Assembly: GCA_021813725.1 (NCBI GenBank)
Contig: JAKAJN010000014.1
Coordinates: 1 to 40,318, forward strand
Length of the DNA: 40,318 nt
Reading direction: 5' to 3'
Source of the DNA: a bacterium
GTDB taxonomy: Bacteria; Gemmatimonadota; Gemmatimonadetes; Gemmatimonadales; Gemmatimonadaceae
How positions within the stretch are numbered: position 1 is the stretch's first letter; each line of letters starts with the position of its first letter. The notes beneath the pieces were generated by a model. It had not been told where the DNA came from, did not search any database, and was given only the letters and a program-made list of their open reading frames with translations. The translations under genes and the position numbers were made by a program. Below are positions 7,828 to 16,999 of the stretch, piece by piece.

Positions 7828-9531
7828 CTAGCCCTTCGCATACGCCTGGTCATGCACCCCGAGGACGGCTCGGCCGCTCGGATCAGCCATCTTGGCGAAC
7901 GCCGCATCCCATCGCAGGGCGGTCTCGGTGGAGCAGGCCACGCTGCGCTCCCACGGCACGCAGTTCACCGCCGTGGCGCTCGGGAAGTGGTGCTCGAAGA
8001 GCTGGCGGTACAAGTACGCCTCCTTCGTCTCCGGCGTCTTGACGGGAAACCGCTCCGCCGCGCCGCGCAGCATCGCATCCGACACCTCACGCTCGGCGTG
8101 CGCCTTGAGGCCGTCGATCCACGAGTATCCGACGCCGTCGGAGAACTGCTCCTTCTGACGCCACAGCACCTCGTCGGGGATGGCACCCGTGAAGGCGTGG
8201 CGCAGGGGGTACTTCTCGATCGGCCGCGGGCGCGGCGCGTTGCGCGGGAGCTTGTGGTCCGGGTTCATCGCCATCGCGACGTCGAGGAACTCGCGATCGA
8301 GGAACGGCACGCGCACCTCCACGCCCCACGCCGCACCGGCCTTGTTGGCGCGCGCGCAGTCGTAGAGGTGCAACTTCTGCAGCTTGCGCACGCTCTCGGC
8401 GTGCAGTTCGGCCCCGTCCGGTGCCTTGTGAAAGTAGAGATAGCCGCCAAAGATCTCGTCGGCGCCCTCGCCGCTCAGCACCATCTTGATGCCCATCGCC
8501 CGGATCTTCCGCATCATCAGGTACATCGGCGTGGAGGCGCGGATGGTCGTGATATCGAACGTCTCGAGGTGATAGATCACGTCGGAGAGCGCGTCGAGCC
8601 CTTCCTGCACGGTGAAGTGGATCTCATGGTGAATGGCGCCGATGGCCTCGGCGACGCGACGTGCCGGCGCCAGGTCGGGCGCGCCGTCGAGCCCCACGGC
8701 AAACGAGTGGATGCGCGGCCACCAGCTCGGCCCGGCATCGCCATCCTCGACGCGACCGTCGCGGTACTTGGCGGCGATGGAAGCCACCAGCGACGAATCC
8801 ACGCCGCCGCTGATGAGCACGCCATACGGGACGTCGCACATCAATTGGCGATGCACGGCCCCTTCCAGCGCGGCGCGCAGCGCGTTTGCGTCGTACTCCC
8901 CGGCGGGGACGTGGTCCGGCGCGGCCCACGCCGGTTCGTAGTAGCGCTGAAAGCCGCGCTCGGCTTCGTGCCCGAGGTAGAAGTGTCCCGGCGGAAACTC
9001 GCGAATCCGCTCGCAGTGTCCGGCCAGCGCCTTCATCTCCGAGGCCACATACAGGTGCTCGTGCCGGTCCCATCCCACGTACAGGGGGATGACGCCGATC
9101 GGGTCGCGTGCAATGAGGTACGTCTGACGCGCCGGATCGTAGAGAACGAACCCGAAAATGCCGTTCATCCGGTTGAGGAACTCACGGGGCGACTGCTCGT
9201 CGTACAGGTAGAGGATCACCTCGCAGTCGGACCGCGTCTGGAACTCGTGCGGCCGCGCGAGCCCGTGGCGCAGGGCCTGGTGGTTGTAGATCTCCCCGTT
9301 GACGGCGAGCACGGTACCTGTCTGACGGTCCACCAGTGGCTGGGCGCCGTGCTCGACGTCCACGATGGAGAGTCGCTCGTGGGCGAGAATCGCGCGCTCG
9401 TCGCTGAAGATGCCGCTCCAGTCCGGGCCGCGGTGGCGAATCTTGCGCGACAGCGCGAGCGCCTGACGGCGCAGCGCCGGCGCATCGCTGCGCGAGGGAT
9501 CGAGCCCAAGAATGGTGACGATGCCGCACAT
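7828..9531 (-). CDS. asnB: asparagine synthetase B (glutamine-hydrolysing)
   Basis: A 567-residue enzyme that makes asparagine from aspartate, ATP and glutamine-derived ammonia; E. coli AsnB is of similar length. ATG 9531 gives MCGIVTI, so after Met removal Cys2 is the N-terminal nucleophile of the class II glutaminase domain (about residues 1-190, with RHRGPDWSG and VNGEIYNHQ). The synthetase domain has the pyrophosphate loop SGGVDSSL and the SGEGADEIFGGY motif. A GGAG lies 7 nt before the start. Directly upstream is a strong terminator, then a short frame with seven Asn codons and a promoter (9546-9727). Expression is therefore predicted to be controlled by transcription attenuation sensing charged tRNA-Asn. 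The SGNH lipoprotein gene follows 69 nt downstream. Confidence 0.97.
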   Translation of the reverse strand: MCGIVTILGLDPSRSDAPALRRQALALSRKIRHRGPDWSGIFSDERAILAHERLSIVDVEHGAQPLVDRQTGTVLAVNGEIYNHQALRHGLARPHEFQTRSDCEVILYLYDEQSPREFLNRMNGIFGFVLYDPARQTYLIARDPIGVIPLYVGWDRHEHLYVASEMKALAGHCERIREFPPGHFYLGHEAERGFQRYYEPAWAAPDHVPAGEYDANALRAALEGAVHRQLMCDVPYGVLISGGVDSSLVASIAAKYRDGRVEDGDAGPSWWPRIHSFAVGLDGAPDLAPARRVAEAIGAIHHEIHFTVQEGLDALSDVIYHLETFDITTIRASTPMYLMMRKIRAMGIKMVLSGEGADEIFGGYLYFHKAPDGAELHAESVRKLQKLHLYDCARANKAGAAWGVEVRVPFLDREFLDVAMAMNPDHKLPRNAPRPRPIEKYPLRHAFTGAIPDEVLWRQKEQFSDGVGYSWIDGLKAHAEREVSDAMLRGAAERFPVKTPETKEAYLYRQLFEHHFPSATAVNCVPWERSVACSTETALRWDAAFAKMADPSGRAVLGVHDQAYAKG

Positions 9532-9545
9532 GAGACAACTCCAGG

Positions 9546-9585
9546 AAAAAGAAAAAACCCCCGATTCGCCGCGGCGAATCGGGGG
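9546..9585 (-). terminator. Rho-independent terminator / attenuator in the asnB leader
   Basis: Bases 9558-9585 form a 28-nt perfect palindrome (arms cccccgattcgccg and cggcgaatcggggg). On the minus strand it is followed by six T, one C and five T (9557-9546). It ends only 14 nt before the asnB start codon, so it cannot be an ordinary gene-end terminator for an upstream gene; it must be read through for asnB to be expressed. That position, with the Asn-rich frame just before it, makes it an attenuator. Confidence 0.93.
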
Positions 9586-9644
9586 TGGTCCGGAACTCGG
9601 GGTCGCTAGGACGCGCCCAAACCGGTCCACGCGCGATTCGCGCG
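9574..9644 (-). promoter_or_regulatory. competing RNA pairing (pause hairpin / antiterminator) in the asnB leader
   Basis: Within the leader frame, 9630-9644 reads cgcgcgattcgcgcg and can fold on itself as the early hairpin. Its core 9634-9641 (GCGAATCG in the RNA) is also complementary over 8 nt to 9574-9581 (CGATTCGC in the RNA), which is inside the 5' arm of the terminator. Pairing 1:2 and 3:4 gives termination; pairing 2:3 would prevent it. These pairings can be seen directly; the switching is inferred. Confidence 0.7.
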
Positions 9645-9692
9645 AGGATTCCGATTATTGTTGCGGTTCGACCGCAGGGCGATGCTGTTCAT
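9606..9692 (-). CDS. Asn-rich leader peptide of asnB (28 aa)
   Basis: A 28-codon frame, ATG 9692 to TAG 9606, ends 20 nt before the terminator hairpin. It has seven Asn codons (positions 2, 9, 11, 12, 13, 15, 19), including the run RSNRNNNRNPRANR. This is the design of classical amino-acid attenuators such as those of his, thr and leu, here matched to asparagine synthetase. No Shine-Dalgarno sequence precedes it, but the -10 box at 9699-9704 puts the likely transcript start on the A of the ATG, so translation would be leaderless. Stalling of a ribosome at the Asn codons would change folding of the downstream RNA. The gene is too short for usual callers. The function is inferred from position and composition. 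Confidence 0.85.
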   Translation of the reverse strand: MNSIALRSNRNNNRNPRANRAWTGLGAS

Positions 9693-9698
9693 GTGCGA

Positions 9699-9727
9699 AG
9701 GGTAGCCGGGCCGGAGCCGAAAGACAA
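9699..9727 (-). promoter_or_regulatory. predicted sigma70-type promoter of the asnB leader
   Basis: On the minus strand TTGTCT (9727-9722) and TACCCT (9704-9699) are spaced by exactly 17 nt. The -10 box ends 6 nt before the leader-peptide ATG at 9692, so the expected start of transcription coincides with the start codon. The -35 box overlaps the edge of the hairpin that closes the upstream MBL gene. Confidence 0.6.
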
Positions 9728-9755
9728 GCGGGACGGCGAGGTTGCCGTCCCGCTT
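9726..9755 (-). terminator. terminator hairpin after the MBL-fold hydrolase gene
   Basis: A 12-bp perfect stem (aagcgggacggc / gccgtcccgctt, plus-strand bases 9726-9737 and 9744-9755) with a 6-nt loop lies 24 nt past the MBL stop codon. The following minus-strand bases are T-rich (TTGTCTTTC) though not a pure run. It separates the MBL transcript from the asnB leader promoter, whose -35 it touches. Confidence 0.7.
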
Positions 9756-10934: not shown

Positions 10935-13283
10935 CTAGAACTTGTAGATCAGCTTCGCCACGGCGGTGCTGCCCGTGAACGGCCGGTTGCCGTACCCGGT
11001 GGTGATCGCGCCGAACGGATCCATGCGCGGCACGCCCGGGGTCACGTCGGTCGTCGCAAAGTCGACGATCTCGAACTTCTCGTACCGATAGCCGAGGCCG
11101 ATGCCCAGGTTGTCCTTGAACATGTGGCGCAGGTCAACCTTGAACTGCGACCAGGTGTTCGTGACGTTCGGCAGCGGGAGGAAGCACGATGCGACGCCTG
11201 GCGCGCACGCCCGGCCGTCGAGCGGATCGCGCAGCGCGATGTTGTCGGGATTCTTGAGCGCTTCGATGCGCGGGCCGGAGTAGGTGTACCCGAGGTCCGA
11301 GTCGCTGAAGTTGAACGCGAACCGCACGTCGGTCTTGGGCAGGGCCTGGATCAGGTCAAGCCAGACTCCGGCGTTCTTGACAGTCTCGTCGTTGTCGAGG
11401 AACCAGTCCCGCTTCGGGTCGTTCCAGCTGTTGTACGCGGACGTCGGGCTGTTCGGGTTGGCGTTGCGCGACTTCTGTGTGGACGACCACTGGTCCTGGC
11501 CGTACATCGCGCCGAACGTGACTTTGTCGGACGCATAGAAGTTGCCCGTCAGGCTGACCGACTGGTTGTCCGACTTCAGCAGGCCGAACGTGTGGCCTTC
11601 GCCATTGTAATCGTCGTTCTGCGTGCCGACGCTGAGGTTCAGGTCGAACTTGGACGACGGCGTGAGCCCGAACACCACCGAGCTCTTGACGCGATCGTAG
11701 TTTGCCTCGTCGAAGAAGCGCAGCCCGCCCTGGCCGCCGCCCTCCTCGATGTACTCGAGCGAGAAGCCCGAACCGACACGCCGCGTCGTCTCCACCAGCC
11801 CGCGCAGCGAGAAGTACTGGTTCTGGTACGCGTCGAGCGCCGTGCGGAACGTGTAGTCCGTCATGTCCGCGAACGCGCGATCGTTGCGCTTCACGTCATC
11901 GAGGATGTAGCCGAAGCGCAGCGCGGTGCCGCGACCCGGCAGCGAGAACGTGGCGCCCGTCTCCAGCGTGCTCTGCCGGATGTTGAGCCCCTCCGTCGCG
12001 GTGCCCGGCGAGTACTCCGGCACGGCGTCGAAGCGGACGTTGTACTCGCCGTTCCAGTGCGGCGTCACGTTGTCGTGATCGTTGAAGCGGTACTTCATGT
12101 CGAACGCGAAGTAATCGGTGGGGCGCGTGGCGAAGTTGACCACCGCGTTGATCCCGTCGACCTGCGCCTGCGCCGACGGCCGCGGCAGCTTGGCCAGGCC
12201 GGGGAAGTACGTGTAGGTCGCCGACTGCGCGATCTTCGTGTTCGTCGTGAACGGCAGGATGGCTTCATCCTGCGTCATGCGAACGATGGCGAACTGCCCG
12301 TTCAGCGTGGTGTGGTTCGGCATCTTGTACAGCGCCGTCAGGCGCAGCGTGTTCATCGCGCTGCTCGGCGCCATGGACATCCGGCCGAACGCCGCGCCGT
12401 TGCCGGTGACGTAGCCGCTGTTGTCCCACGGACCGCTCGTCTGCGACGTGGCCGGCTTGCCGCTGTCGTAGTCCGTCGCGCGCATCGGATTGTCAAACTC
12501 CAGCGCGGGGAGGTTCTGCTTGAAGAACGATCCCTGATACTCGGCGCGGATCATGCCGTATGCGCTCTTGGCGAGCTCGAGACCGGCGGTGATCTCGCTG
12601 ACGCTGTTGTCGAGCGTCATCGGCACGTTGGTCGCGTCGTTGAACGCGAAGGACGCGCCCCACGGCTGGTTGCCCGACTTGGTGCCGAACGTGTACTTGA
12701 AGTCCACCGTGGCGAACTCGTTCAGACGATACTTCGCACCGGCCCGCAGCGTATTGCGCTGGGCCGACATCGGGAACTCGGTGGCGATGGACCGGTAGAT
12801 GGACGCGGTGAACGGTAGCGACGTGCCAATACCCACCACGCCCGGCTCCTTGCTCTGCACGCGGGTGCGGAGCGTCTGGTCCAGCGTCCACTTGTTGTTT
12901 CCCGCGTCGCGATACGGCGTGAGGGTGTTGTATGCGTAGTTCAACGGTTGGCCATTGAAGCTCAGGTCGAACTTCGCCTTGCCAAACCGGTTGTAGTTGA
13001 ACGCAAACTGTTGATCGTTGTAGCCGACGTTGGCGGCGCTGAAATCATACGCCACTGCGTCGGTCTCCTTGCCGATGAGAATCTTGCTGGCGAGGCCCGA
13101 CTTCAGGTCCTCGTAGCGCTGGTAGCGGGCTTCGTCGCCCGTGGTGGTCGTGGCCCGGAAGCCGAGCTCCCAGGTCTGTTCCCAAGCCGGCTTTGCCGGC
13201 GCCGCCGCCTTCTGCTGTGCCCCCGCCACGCTGGCGGAAGCGAGCACGAGGAGCGCGGCCGAGAAAATGGTGCTAGTGCGCAT
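10935..13283 (-). CDS. MtrB/PioB-type decaheme-associated outer-membrane beta-barrel, copy 1
   Basis: A 782-residue protein with a Sec signal (MRTSTIFSAALLVLASASVA, cleavage near AGAQ) and a long series of alternating aromatic/polar beta-strand segments, ending in AKLIYKF with the terminal Phe common in outer-membrane barrels. Proteins of this family form a porin that sheathes a decaheme cytochrome so that electrons cross the outer membrane. The start at 13283 has GGGAGAGGGAG just upstream. It follows the decaheme gene by 17 nt, so the two form one unit. The N-terminal CxxC of Shewanella MtrB is absent; the only obvious Cys pair is late in the protein (ACAPGVASC). A second copy of the cassette is next door and very similar. 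Confidence 0.92.
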   Translation of the reverse strand: MRTSTIFSAALLVLASASVAGAQQKAAAPAKPAWEQTWELGFRATTTTGDEARYQRYEDLKSGLASKILIGKETDAVAYDFSAANVGYNDQQFAFNYNRFGKAKFDLSFNGQPLNYAYNTLTPYRDAGNNKWTLDQTLRTRVQSKEPGVVGIGTSLPFTASIYRSIATEFPMSAQRNTLRAGAKYRLNEFATVDFKYTFGTKSGNQPWGASFAFNDATNVPMTLDNSVSEITAGLELAKSAYGMIRAEYQGSFFKQNLPALEFDNPMRATDYDSGKPATSQTSGPWDNSGYVTGNGAAFGRMSMAPSSAMNTLRLTALYKMPNHTTLNGQFAIVRMTQDEAILPFTTNTKIAQSATYTYFPGLAKLPRPSAQAQVDGINAVVNFATRPTDYFAFDMKYRFNDHDNVTPHWNGEYNVRFDAVPEYSPGTATEGLNIRQSTLETGATFSLPGRGTALRFGYILDDVKRNDRAFADMTDYTFRTALDAYQNQYFSLRGLVETTRRVGSGFSLEYIEEGGGQGGLRFFDEANYDRVKSSVVFGLTPSSKFDLNLSVGTQNDDYNGEGHTFGLLKSDNQSVSLTGNFYASDKVTFGAMYGQDQWSSTQKSRNANPNSPTSAYNSWNDPKRDWFLDNDETVKNAGVWLDLIQALPKTDVRFAFNFSDSDLGYTYSGPRIEALKNPDNIALRDPLDGRACAPGVASCFLPLPNVTNTWSQFKVDLRHMFKDNLGIGLGYRYEKFEIVDFATTDVTPGVPRMDPFGAITTGYGNRPFTGSTAVAKLIYKF

Positions 13284-13300
13284 CTCTGTCTCCCTCTCCC

Positions 13301-14248
13301 TTAGCGTAGGAACGCTTTGCCGTTGGCGTTGTTCGAGCCGTGAATCTGCTGGTGGCAGTTCATGCAGGCCCGGCCGGTGATCCTGTTGGCGCCCGACGAA
13401 GTGCTGAGCACGAAGCCGTCATAGACGGTCGGCGGGTGGCGCGACGTCACGTGGCAGCGCTGACACAGGCCCGGCGCCTTGGCGACGAGCATGCGGTCGT
13501 TGTTCGACCCGTGCGGATCGTGGCAGGTGACGCACGAGTTGACGACCGGGGCGTGCTCCCACAGGAACGGACCGCGCTTCTCCTGGTGGCAACTCGTGCA
13601 GCTCTCGTTCACGTTCGTGCCGCTGCGGAGCAGGCGGACGTTCGCTGAGCCGTGGAGATTGTGGCACGACGAGCACTCCAACGCGCCCTCGCGTACCGGC
13701 ATGTGGTTGAAGCGGTTGACCTTGTTGACAATCGCCTGGTGGCAGCTGGCGCACAGCTTGGCCTGCGTAGCTTCCTTCAACTGCTTGTCGCCCTTGGGGC
13801 TGTGCACGCTATGGCACCTGACGCAGCTGACATTGCGCGCCTCATGCTTGCTGTTCGCCCAGAAGGCGTGCTCGCTCGAGACGTGGCAGGTGGTGCAGAC
13901 CGCGGAGGCTTCCCCCGCGCTCACCTTGTTGAACTGGAGCGGCTTCACCTTTTCCGGATCGTCCGCATGCTTGCTTCCCGGCCCGTGGCACGATTCGCAG
14001 CCGCGAGCGGCTGCCGGTGTGCGCGGGTCGGCGACCTTGAAGTGGAGCGTCTTGTCGCCGGCCTTGTTCTCGTGGCACCCCAGGCAGGTCTCCTGACCCA
14101 CGTAGGTCGCGCCCTCGGCCGCCGCCGGCTTGTTCTGTTGTGCTCCGGCCGAGGCGAAGGCAACCGCCCCGAGGAGCATCGCGCCTGCAAATCGGAACAT
14201 CGGCCCAATCGAGCGACCAACCATTCCTCGACGCGCGGTATCTGTCAT
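13301..14248 (-). CDS. DmsE/MtrA-type periplasmic decaheme c-type cytochrome, copy 1
   Basis: A 315-residue exported cytochrome with ten CxxCH haem sites, in order CLGCH, CESCH, CTTCH, CVRCH, CASCH, CSSCH, CTSCH, CVTCH, CQRCH, CMNCH. This is the number and spacing style of the MtrA/DmsE family. ATG 14248 has AGGAG 7 nt upstream and gives a signal peptide (MFRFAGAMLLGAVAFASAGA). The frame stays open to 14398, but that part looks non-coding. It would pick up electrons in the periplasm, or deliver them, through the partner barrel encoded 17 nt downstream. No extracellular MtrC-like cytochrome or DmsAB reductase accompanies it, so the direction and final partner of electron flow are unknown. Confidence 0.95.
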   Translation of the reverse strand: MTDTARRGMVGRSIGPMFRFAGAMLLGAVAFASAGAQQNKPAAAEGATYVGQETCLGCHENKAGDKTLHFKVADPRTPAAARGCESCHGPGSKHADDPEKVKPLQFNKVSAGEASAVCTTCHVSSEHAFWANSKHEARNVSCVRCHSVHSPKGDKQLKEATQAKLCASCHQAIVNKVNRFNHMPVREGALECSSCHNLHGSANVRLLRSGTNVNESCTSCHQEKRGPFLWEHAPVVNSCVTCHDPHGSNNDRMLVAKAPGLCQRCHVTSRHPPTVYDGFVLSTSSGANRITGRACMNCHQQIHGSNNANGKAFLR

Positions 14249-14459
14249 GGCACTCTCCTGAACTGCTGATGCAGAGGTGTTGAGCTGCATAATCCAATCG
14301 GAGGACGCCGAGTCACCCGAAGGATGACAGGCGATGCGGAAGTTGCTGATAAGAAAAGGGTTCCACAGTCGGAGGATCGCGAATTCTACGTAATCCATTT
14401 CCTGACGCGATTAAAGGATTATGCCATTTCGGGCATTTGGTAGATCAGTGCGGCGAAGT

Positions 14460-14490
14460 CGCTAACGCTTTATTGTAAAAGAGGTTAGCG
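14460..14490. promoter_or_regulatory. inverted repeat upstream of decaheme cassette 1 (possible operator)
   Basis: Two 7-bp arms, cgctaac (14460-14466) and gttagcg (14484-14490), flank 17 nt of AT-rich sequence about 210-240 nt upstream of the first decaheme start codon. The geometry fits a dimeric regulator site or a small hairpin. I cannot assign a regulator. Confidence 0.35.
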
Positions 14491-14583
14491 TCCATCATGA
14501 CGGGATGGCGCCCCACACTCCTGCTGGTGACCATACGTTTGGTCTGTCAGCGAACTGCAACGCCCAGTCCTCCGTACACGCAA

Positions 14584-14613
14584 AAGCGGCACCTCCGAGT
14601 GGAGGTGCCGCTT
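14584..14613 (-). terminator. Rho-independent terminator of the second decaheme cassette
   Basis: A 13-bp perfect stem (aagcggcacctcc / ggaggtgccgctt) with a 4-nt loop lies 44 nt past the stop of the second MtrB-like gene. On the minus strand the stem runs into CTTTTG, a short T-tract. Its sequence is related to the hairpin after copy 1. Confidence 0.8.
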
Positions 14614-14656
14614 CTGCTTGCGCGGTGCCGGGGGCTGAGCCCCGGCGCCGTCGGGA

Positions 14657-16999
14657 CTAGAACTTGTAGATCAACTTCGCAATCGCGGTGCTGCCCGTGT
14701 ACGGACGGTTGCCGTACCCGGTCGTGATGGCGCCGAGCGGATCCATGCGCGGCACGCCGGGGGTCACATCGGTCGTCGCAAAGTCGACGATCTCGAACTT
14801 CTCGTACCGATAGCCCAGGCCGATGCCCAGGTTGTCCTTGAACATGTGGCGCAGGTCAACCTTGAACTGCGACCAGGTGTTCGTGACGTTCGGCCACGGG
14901 ATGAAGCATGACGCAATGCCCGTTGCGCACGGACGGCTGTCGAGCGGATGCCGCAGCGCCGTGTTGTCGGGGTTCTTGAGCGCCTCGACACGCGGGCCGT
15001 AGTACGTGTACTCGAGGTCCGAGTCGCTGAAGTTGAAGGCGAACCGCACGTCGGTCTTGGGCAGGGCCTGGATCAGGTCGAGCCAGACGCCGGCGCTGGT
15101 GATCGTCTCGTTGTTGTCCATGTACCAGTTGCGCAGCGGGTCCACCCAGCTGTTGTACGCGGCCGTCGGGTTGTCCGGGTTGGCGTTGCGCGACTTCTGG
15201 TTGGTGGACCAGTTGTCCGCGCCGTACGTCGCGCCGAACGTGACCTTGTCGTTCACGTAGTAGTTGCCGGTGAGGCTGAACGACGTGTTGTCGTACTTGA
15301 GCAGGCCGAACTCATGGCCGTCGCCCGTGTACTCGTCGTTCATCGTGCCGACGCTGAGGTTCAGGTCAAACTTGCTCGACGGCGTGAAGCCGAGGATCAC
15401 GGAGCTCTTCAGGCGATCCATGTCGGCTTCGTCGTAGAAGCGAAGCTGGTGCTGGCCGCCGCCTTCCTCAATGTGCTCAATCGACAGCCCCGAGCCGATG
15501 CGGCGGGTGCTTTCGATGAGGCCGCGGAGCGAGACGTACTGGTTCTGGTACGCGTCGAGCGAGGCGCGGAAGGTGTAGTCCGTCATGTCGCTGAACGCGC
15601 GGCCACTGCGCTTCACGTCATCGAGGATGTAGCCGAACCGCAGCGCGGTGCCGCGGCGTGGCAGCGAGAACGTGGCACCCGTTTCGACGGTGCTCTGCCG
15701 AACGTCGAGTCCGTCGCTCGCCGCGCCCGGCACGTTCTCCGGCACGGCGTCGAAGCGGACGTTGTACTGGCCGTTCCACTCCGGCGTCACGTTGTCGTGA
15801 TCGTTGAAGCGGTACTTCATGTCGAACGCGAAGTAGTCGGTGGGACGCGTGGTGAAGTTGATCACCGCGTTGATCCCGTCGACCTGCGCTTCCGCCGACG
15901 GGCGCGGCAGCTTCGCCAGCCCGGGGTAGAAGGCATACGTCGCCGCCTGCGCGATCTTCGTGTTCGTCGTGAACGGCAGGATGTCGTCGTTCTGCGTCAT
16001 GCGCAGGATGGCGAACTGTCCGTTCAGCGTGGTGTGGTTCGGCATCTTGTACAGCGCCGTCAGGCGCAGCGTGTTCATCGCGCTGCTGGGCGTCATGCTC
16101 ATGCGGCCGAACGCCGGACCATTGCCGTTGGAATAGCCGCTGGGATCCCACGGGCCGCTCGGCGGCACCTTGCCGTTGTCGAAGTCGGTCGCGCGGAGCG
16201 GGCTATCCCACTCCATCGAGGCGAGGTTCTGCTTGAAGAACGACCCCGCATATTCGGCGCGGAACATGCCGTATTCGCTCTTGGCGAACTCGATGCCGGC
16301 GGTGATTTCGTTGACGCCGTTGTCGAGCGTCATCGGGAGCTCGTTTGCATTGCTGAACGCAAACGCGCCGGCGTACGGCTGGTTGCCCGACTTGGTGACC
16401 ATGCGGTAGCTGAAGTCCACGGTCGCGATCTTGTTGACCTGGTACTTCAGTCCCATGTCGAGCGTGTTGCGCTGGGCGGACATCGGGAACTCGGTGGCGA
16501 TCGAGCGATAGATCGAGGCCACGTTGGTCGCCGCCGTGTTGCCGATGCCGACGATCCCCGCTTCCTTGTTCTGCACGCGGGTGCGGAGCGTCGGGTCGAG
16601 CGTCCACTTGTTGTTCCCCGCGTCGCGATACGGGGTGAGGGAGTTGAACGCGTAGTTCAACGGCTGGCCATTGAAGTTCAGGTCGAACTTCGCCTTGCCG
16701 AACCGGTTGTAGCTGAAGTTGTAGGCCTGGTCGTCATACCCGACATTGGCGGCGCTGAAATCGTACGCCACCGCGTCCGTCTCCTTGCCGATCGCGATCT
16801 TGCTGGCGAGGCCGGACTTCAGGTCTTCGTACCGCATATAGCGGGCTTCGTCTCCGGTCGTGGTCGTGGACCGGAAGCCGAGCTCCCACTGCTGCTCCCA
16901 CGCCGGCTTCGCCGGCGCGGCCGCCTTCTGCTGCGCCTCCGCCACGCTGGCGGAAGCGAGCACGAGGAGCGCGGCCGAAATGATGAACCGAGTGCGCAT
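14657..16999 (-). CDS. MtrB/PioB-type decaheme-associated outer-membrane beta-barrel, copy 2
   Basis: A 780-residue paralogue of the protein at 10935-13283, co-linear over its whole length. Long stretches are identical by eye, including the last 20 or so residues around FATTDVTPGVPRMDP and YTGSTAIAKLIYKF. The signal peptide (MRTRFIISAALLVLASASVA) differs at only a few positions. Differences cluster in predicted loops, for example around the NTAATNVASIYRS region. The late Cys pair (PCATGIASC) is kept, and the N-terminal CxxC is again absent. GGGAGAGG precedes the start. It is encoded 16 nt after its decaheme partner. Like copy 1 it would form an outer-membrane electron conduit; the two may differ in partner or in expression. 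Confidence 0.92.
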   Translation of the reverse strand: MRTRFIISAALLVLASASVAEAQQKAAAPAKPAWEQQWELGFRSTTTTGDEARYMRYEDLKSGLASKIAIGKETDAVAYDFSAANVGYDDQAYNFSYNRFGKAKFDLNFNGQPLNYAFNSLTPYRDAGNNKWTLDPTLRTRVQNKEAGIVGIGNTAATNVASIYRSIATEFPMSAQRNTLDMGLKYQVNKIATVDFSYRMVTKSGNQPYAGAFAFSNANELPMTLDNGVNEITAGIEFAKSEYGMFRAEYAGSFFKQNLASMEWDSPLRATDFDNGKVPPSGPWDPSGYSNGNGPAFGRMSMTPSSAMNTLRLTALYKMPNHTTLNGQFAILRMTQNDDILPFTTNTKIAQAATYAFYPGLAKLPRPSAEAQVDGINAVINFTTRPTDYFAFDMKYRFNDHDNVTPEWNGQYNVRFDAVPENVPGAASDGLDVRQSTVETGATFSLPRRGTALRFGYILDDVKRSGRAFSDMTDYTFRASLDAYQNQYVSLRGLIESTRRIGSGLSIEHIEEGGGQHQLRFYDEADMDRLKSSVILGFTPSSKFDLNLSVGTMNDEYTGDGHEFGLLKYDNTSFSLTGNYYVNDKVTFGATYGADNWSTNQKSRNANPDNPTAAYNSWVDPLRNWYMDNNETITSAGVWLDLIQALPKTDVRFAFNFSDSDLEYTYYGPRVEALKNPDNTALRHPLDSRPCATGIASCFIPWPNVTNTWSQFKVDLRHMFKDNLGIGLGYRYEKFEIVDFATTDVTPGVPRMDPLGAITTGYGNRPYTGSTAIAKLIYKF

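Follow-up and report, generated by a model that had tools for sequence, protein, structure and literature searches.

The window, that is, the whole analyzed stretch of 40,318 nt from a member of the Gemmatimonadaceae, carries on its minus strand the gene asnB (7828..9531), which encodes a glutamine-hydrolysing asparagine synthetase B of 567 aa and is preceded by a GGAG motif at 9542-9539. The product scored 822.8 bits against NF006949 (cut-off 499) and 741 bits against the structure 1ct9, an asparagine synthetase B that we take to be the E. coli enzyme. Further upstream lies an MBL-fold gene, for which an intrinsic terminator was identified from the sequence (9728..9753, minus strand; a 26-nt hairpin of −22.2 kcal/mol). 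The T-rich tail of this terminator overlaps the −35 element of the promoter described below (9722-9753, minus strand). According to the original prediction, asnB is preceded by a ribosome-mediated asparagine attenuator composed of a promoter, an Asn-rich short frame, an early hairpin and a terminator, and inspection of the sequence and scans recovered all of these elements on the minus strand upstream of asnB, in the claimed order.

The promoter-like pair (9699..9727, minus strand) consists of TTGTCT at 9727-9722 and TACCCT at 9704-9699. The 17-nt spacing is as claimed, but the match to the consensus is weak (7 of 12 positions), and a stricter scan found no promoter in the window upstream of the leader. 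The leader peptide ORF (9606..9692, minus strand) comprises 28 codons, MNSIALRSNRNNNRNPRANRAWTGLGAS, from the ATG at 9692 to the TAG at 9608-9606, and indeed contains seven Asn codons, at positions 2, 9, 11, 12, 13, 15 and 19. Codons 9-15 (N-R-N-N-N-R-N; 9648..9668, minus strand) are the putative control codons, at which a ribosome would permit the antiterminator in the ribosome-position model described below. The early hairpin, CCTCGCGCG-AAT-CGCGCGTGG (9627..9647, minus strand; found by folding and in the sequence), lies directly 3' of the Asn run and is termed the protector or pause hairpin here. The intrinsic terminator (9557..9586, minus strand), found by a terminator scan and by folding, has the loop CGCG and 13 bp rather than the proposed 14 bp, because with a 14th pair, the loop would shrink to 2 nt. 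It is followed by the near-pure T-tract TTTTTCTTTTT (9546..9556, minus strand), the end of which, at 9546, is separated by 14 nt from the asnB ATG at 9531, as had been stated; the distance from the leader stop to the asnB start is 74 nt.

Immediately downstream of the Asn run, the leader contains a segment that is complementary to the terminator 5' arm. The 8-nt pairing of 9641-9634 with 9581-9574 given in the original prediction is exact, but it forms only the core of a longer, imperfect helix. According to folding with a masked ribosome, the antiterminator pairs 9622..9641 with 9574..9593 (both minus strand), and the part of its 3' strand from 9586 to 9574 is the terminator 5' arm. The upstream region combines a short ORF in which codons for the pathway product are clustered and a predicted terminator before the structural gene, and this gene belongs to the biosynthesis of the presumed sensed amino acid, asparagine. 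The 148-nt leader RNA folded better than all 200 of 200 dinucleotide shuffles (z = −4.29). The terminator alone was not above chance, with one terminator found by a simple scan of an 801-nt stretch and 0.8 expected. The real test of whether the arrangement is more than a chance occurrence is its conservation in relatives.

To the loci of relatives, phylum labels were assigned via named centre loci (L001, Gemmatimonadetes; L004, Geothrix; L034, Citrobacter; L037, Polyangia; L009, Mycobacterium; L030, Planctomycetaceae). A script recorded intrinsic terminators at most 150 nt from asnB that were preceded by a frame ending before the terminator and containing at least three Asn within eight codons. 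Such a dense Asn frame was present in 18 of 19 terminator-bearing asnB loci of Gemmatimonadota, in 28 of 32 of Acidobacteriota and in four of six of other groups, altogether in 50 of 57, counted before the Pseudomonadota family described below was added. These are not independent cases, as many are close kin and a few loci were counted twice: the upstream sequences of L001 and L087 are identical, one genome yielded both L178 and L004, and L115 and L210 represent the same place. Only one of 77 control terminators had a dense Asn frame; the controls were all other terminators in the Gemmatimonadota and Acidobacteriota loci and in the window, not limited to places close before genes, and a qualifying frame of any kind was present in 42 of them and lacking in 35. 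Two loci with one and three Asn codons (L136 and L139) were counted as weak, and in L138, L186, L187 and L196 only two Asn codons are clustered. Relatives that retain the terminator but lack the Asn frame had been named as the finding that would speak against an attenuator; the opposite was observed, and the relatives thus support the attenuator reading.

Altogether, the predicted leader layout is common to relatives in three phyla, namely, Gemmatimonadota, Holophaga-type Acidobacteriota and one family of Pseudomonadota. Among Gemmatimonadota, 68 of 395 genomes had an asnB match at the cut-off, and the upstream DNA of 66 of these was scanned (G186 and G251 were left out, as the match begins inside the gene). 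One leader type is shared by all seven closely related asnB genes from within the genus, including that in the window (L081, L084-L089). Eleven further Gemmatimonadota carry unlike Asn leaders, for example, MRATGCTLNNNNNRNPRTLCARAGCDV and MPVSARNRNNNSRNPLSTRSRGPGRLLP, together with other terminators (L104, L109, L119, L135, L137, L138, L140, L142, L144, L147 and L148). Two loci in which the script had missed the terminator were added by eye, L106 with an imperfect hairpin and L210 with a terminator about 230 nt from the gene. Two large genera of the class, g70 and g74, have asnB without a leader in every genome examined. Among Acidobacteriota, 42 of 396 genomes had an asnB match. The window-type leader is present in Holophaga-type genomes, including Geothrix fuzhouensis SG12 (L004); shorter leaders occur in L194 (MPSASVNFANNNPPPGWSW) and L196 (MTFVLANVASNHPPPGWSR), and further ones in L204 and L205.

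Matches were obtained in 32 of 299 genomes of Pseudomonadota, with a leader close to the gene in four of the 30 loci examined. The family of one of these carriers (L263) had matches in 70 of 119 genomes, and an Asn leader with a terminator was present in all 29 loci of this family that were examined besides L263, 26 of them in new genomes and three (L360, L364 and L368) in genomes of the earlier Pseudomonadota set. Our guess is that this family is the Xanthomonadaceae/Lysobacteraceae. No Asn leader with a terminator was found in 27 of 28 Myxococcota loci, in 20 of 21 Actinomycetota loci (nearly all with a distant asnB of about 40% identity, and four with a badly placed start) or in eight of eight Planctomycetota loci, these being the numbers of loci examined, nor in 72 loci of other groups, one of which offered just 91 nt of upstream sequence. 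Where an Asn frame lacked a usable terminator (L234 and L253, among others) or the terminator was more than 150 nt from the gene (L246 and L265), the frame was taken as a chance occurrence.

Mapped onto a tree of 79 AsnB proteins (quick method, with 24 forks left open), the leaders fall, by our reading, into at least three separate clades, with at least nine changes between presence and absence; gain and loss of the leader are in general indistinguishable in this tree. The Holophaga-type asnB of L190 has neither leader nor terminator, and this looks like a loss, because a TTGACG promoter-like element is now located directly before asnB; perhaps this locus represents a natural deletion of the attenuator.

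In alignment A1, which comprises 33 leaders (32 distinct) from Gemmatimonadota and Holophaga-type Acidobacteriota, gaps within the ORF always span 3 or 6 nt, and those after the stop codon span 1, 2 or 4 nt. Judging from the aligned sequences, selection maintains the reading frame of the leader, which is conserved as a protein. Both Asn codons are used in A1 (AAT 91 times, AAC 48 times), pointing to selection at the amino acid level. The protector hairpin was paired in 256 of 256 cells in 32 distinct relatives, a nearly invariant region in which a version slid by +2 still pairs at 86.3%, and the antiterminator helix was paired in 97.4% of the alignment cells. The compensatory changes that the original prediction had suggested looking for were absent or uninformative in A1 and A2, because the helices hardly vary, but were found in the Pseudomonadota alignment A3. 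There, the antiterminator was 90.2% paired, slid versions reached 21-45%, and five two-sided changes were counted, a number attained by one of 500 shuffles; the terminator was 98.2% paired with 16 two-sided changes (0 of 500 shuffles). The early hairpin was only 71.7% paired in A3 and is deleted in L373, L374 and L377; thus, it is not essential in these Pseudomonadota leaders. The motif RANNRAW in the Pseudomonadota leader L256 resembles RANRAW in the group A leaders of Gemmatimonadota and Holophaga-type genomes; both are encoded by a hairpin with one or two Asn codons in the loop, by shared descent or by convergence.

We folded transcripts of 23 representatives that were truncated before the 3' arm of the terminator, masking the positions of a ribosome in the Asn run. 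For 17 of the 23, 9-12 bases of the terminator arm paired with the leader, and the pairing segments of leader and arm differ by lineage (GCGAATCGCGCGTGG/CCACCCCCGATTCGC, GGAGCCGC/GCGGCTCC and GATGCGGG/CCCGCATC). Terminator arms across the lineages include CCCCCGATTCGC, GCGGCTCC, CCCGCATC and CACCTGCC; as their letters differ, the complementarity has been re-made or kept despite the changes. Thus, alternative pairing with the terminator 5' arm recurs in lineages with different sequences, in the in silico folds as well as in A3. When the leader segment was shuffled, a level of 5% or below was attained in 11 of the 23 representatives and missed in 12; the antiterminators of L194, L196 and L137 were no better than chance in this test. 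A simpler test of the duplex between the leader and the bare terminator arm separated several leaders of group B and others from shuffles, but not those of group A (for L081, 109 of 500 shuffles were as good); it was replaced by folding with a masked ribosome since it does not consider the helix portion that lies upstream of the arm.

When the ribosome was moved codon by codon along 31 leaders, the antiterminator was permitted at 137 of 153 Asn codons vs. 372 of 709 other codons, and it was lost at a median of two codons past the last clustered Asn (range −4 to 9); in a circular-shift control, 0.05 or below was attained in only eight of the 31 leaders. In complete transcripts, the terminator prevailed in 20 of 20 folds. 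As the terminator wins once its 3' arm has been made, the switch must be kinetic, that is, timing decides.

A ribosome modeled at the leader stop codon left the antiterminator unblocked in five of five group A leaders and four of six group B leaders that were folded, removed it in L256, L135, L194, L205 and L138, and gave an intermediate outcome in L243, L250, L142, L144, L204 and L140. In those group A and B leaders, in which a ribosome at the stop leaves the segment uncovered, shut-off must rely on re-formation of the protector hairpin. A model of protector release, which asked whether region 2 is sequestered locally before the terminator arm emerges, yielded mixed results for 30 leaders: release at the last Asn was apparent in leaders of the same genus (L081, from 0.61 to 0.36; L088, from 0.67 to 0.10) but not in those of the Holophaga type, and sequestration was higher at the stop than at the last Asn in 16 of the 30. 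Given this mixed outcome, the OFF branch is marked as inferred below, and according to the models, there may be two variants of the OFF step.

Promoter-like pairs are present at a suitable distance in most leaders, that of the window itself being weak; no convincing promoter was recognized for L104, L119, L140 and L147. All six close relatives of the same genus have TTGACN at the −35 position. With +1 set seven nt after the best −10 element, the predicted +1 in the window is position 9692 itself, the position of the ATG, so that the leader mRNA would be leaderless. The leader start codon is predicted to lie 0-8 nt from +1 in the seven loci of the same genus, 0-1 nt in L243, L250, L256 and L263, 0 nt in L194 and L196, and 0-3 nt in L137, L142 and L144; the distance is 9-22 nt in the Holophaga-type loci, often with AGG in between. 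For several lineages, it is therefore predicted that the leader is translated from a leaderless or nearly leaderless mRNA.

In our opinion, the element in the window is very likely a ribosome-mediated transcription attenuator that ties the expression of asnB to the supply of charged tRNA-Asn. RNA polymerase would start at the A of the leader AUG or at an adjacent nucleotide, and the ribosome would begin on a leaderless or nearly leaderless mRNA. When Asn-tRNA is ample, the ribosome would pass codons 9-15; either the protector (9647-9627) would re-form or the ribosome would cover the following segment, the terminator (9586-9557) would form, and asnB would not be transcribed. When Asn-tRNA is short, in silico folding suggests that the ribosome would halt in the Asn run and cover the 5' arm of the protector, and the freed segment 9641-9622 would pair with 9593-9574, which would prevent the terminator from forming and allow transcription of asnB. 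Asparaginyl-tRNA synthetase (AsnRS) scored above the curated cut-off in 29 of the 30 genomes tested and in 26 of 27 leader-bearing genomes, the exception being G301, a genome that is 85% complete. The genome of the window encodes AsnRS as well. With AsnRS present, free asparagine can be charged onto tRNA-Asn and feed back, and the loop could be closed by charging of tRNA-Asn with AsnB-made asparagine. At asnS itself, no Asn leader with a terminator was found in 29 loci.

The leader peptide itself might also sense free asparagine or another small molecule and stall the ribosome, much as TnaC stalls it in response to tryptophan. In favor of this, most of group A has a conserved segment RA[ND]RAW, and many Pseudomonadota leaders contain RANNRA[RW]. 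However, RA[ND]RAW is encoded at the site of the protector hairpin, which can account for its conservation, and leaders of other lineages (e.g., L104, L135, L204 and L205) have the Asn run without this motif; peptide arrest appears improbable to us, even if it is the least improbable of the alternatives. The possibility that the leader senses arginine, or the general speed of translation, draws on the enrichment of arginine, which ranks second among the leader residues in this respect (96 of 561, 2.1-fold over AsnB proteins). The enrichment of Asn is 12.3-fold (104 of 561), a figure that is inflated because the leaders were picked by Asn density, but the controlled gene makes asparagine and the L194 leader has no Arg at all, and we rate sensing of arginine or translation speed as quite improbable.

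Control might also be exerted on the translation of asnB, by coupling or by release of the ribosome-binding site, instead of on termination, and the short distance between the leader stop and the asnB start and the GGAG just before asnB would suit such a mode. Against this, the hairpin in the window is followed by a near-pure T-tract and is located upstream of, not over, the asnB ribosome-binding site; the T-rich tails in the relatives are no independent proof, because they were used as a search criterion. Translational control instead of termination is highly improbable in our view. Finally, an ordinary intergenic terminator could have a random Asn-rich frame upstream, and a terminator is indeed expected about once by chance in a stretch of the length scanned. 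The frame, the Asn codons and the alternative pairing, however, recur in many genomes and several lineages, and the controls had such a frame only once; the probability of pure coincidence is practically negligible. Thus, transcription attenuation controlled by the Asn codons remains the preferred reading.

Leader-peptide transcription attenuators are familiar from the trp, his, leu, thr, ilv and phe operons of enterobacteria. The element in the window shares with them a short ORF rich in codons for the product, alternative antiterminator and terminator structures, and a biosynthetic gene downstream, but asparagine would be sensed, the target would be asnB, and the hosts are Gemmatimonadota and Acidobacteriota. 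Judged from sequence, it would be an attenuator of known mechanism, with a new amino acid specificity, asparagine, and in new phyla. T-box RNAs bind tRNA directly and have no leader peptide. Rfam 15 gave no match of any kind, to a T-box or a known riboswitch, at gathering score in the window and 17 representative loci. Poly-cysteine leaderless short ORFs of mycobacteria have reportedly been described (Canestrari, in 2020, by title); again by title, they resemble the present leaders in being short and leaderless and in containing a stretch of codons for the amino acid that is sensed, and differ in that this amino acid is cysteine.

A report on the mycobacterial ilvB1 attenuator mentions translation attenuation for cysteine genes, apparently the poly-cysteine case (PMC13236596). 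The ilvB1 attenuator itself, as presented there, likewise has control codons in a uORF, ribosome stalling that permits an antiterminator, and an intrinsic terminator, but it responds to branched-chain amino acids, has a 166-nt leader and belongs to another phylum (PMC13236596). Ribosome-mediated attenuation has also been proposed for uORFC-8-2 before cysS of Rhodobacterales, a conserved uORF with control codons that differs in the amino acid (cysteine), the gene (a tRNA synthetase gene) and the group (alphaproteobacteria) (PMC8632094). The T-boxes at asparaginyl-tRNA synthetase genes of Firmicutes are similar as sensors of tRNA charging that control a gene for charging Asn (PMC2494555). According to a study from 2010, leader-peptide systems had until then been found only in Proteobacteria and Actinobacteria, apart from the ermC leader and the cases in Firmicutes that the study itself added, and of the predicted acidobacterial attenuators, hardly any had been assigned a function (PMC2965389). 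No Asn or asnB leader appeared among the papers listed in searches of an open-access library; within this scope, the statement that no Asn leader peptide has been described held, and a search of PMC1262725 for Asn terms gave no occurrence.

We consider it likely that the leaders represent an asparagine-specific class of attenuators that has not been described before and has moved as a cassette with asnB among Gemmatimonadota, Acidobacteriota and one family of Pseudomonadota, with a leaderless leader mRNA in several lineages, and that they are the first leader-peptide attenuators assigned in Gemmatimonadota and Acidobacteriota. If this is true, asparagine joins the amino acids sensed by leader-peptide attenuation, and the mechanism extends to two phyla for which we found no assigned case and to leader mRNAs whose 5' UTR is short or absent. 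It would also predict the regulation of asnB in little-studied bacteria, one of which is a named Geothrix strain. The leader family is an addition that is absent from Rfam 15.

Two further observations concern other frames. The asnB gene of L263 (1501-3189, plus strand) has an antisense frame that is open over the whole gene and was matched at E < 1e-150 in 70 of the 119 genomes of the Pseudomonadota family; most likely, this frame is a by-product of GC-rich codon use. In the window, a protein with ten CXXCH motifs is encoded between two paralogues of the MtrB/PioB type of outer-membrane proteins (10935-16999, minus strand). The paralogues scored 153.5 and 173.2 bits against TIGR03509, both below the cut-off of 240.05, and the ten-CXXCH protein scored 249.6 bits against TIGR03508 (DmsE-family decaheme cytochrome), above the cut-off of 192.2; this region is a possible extracellular electron transfer module.
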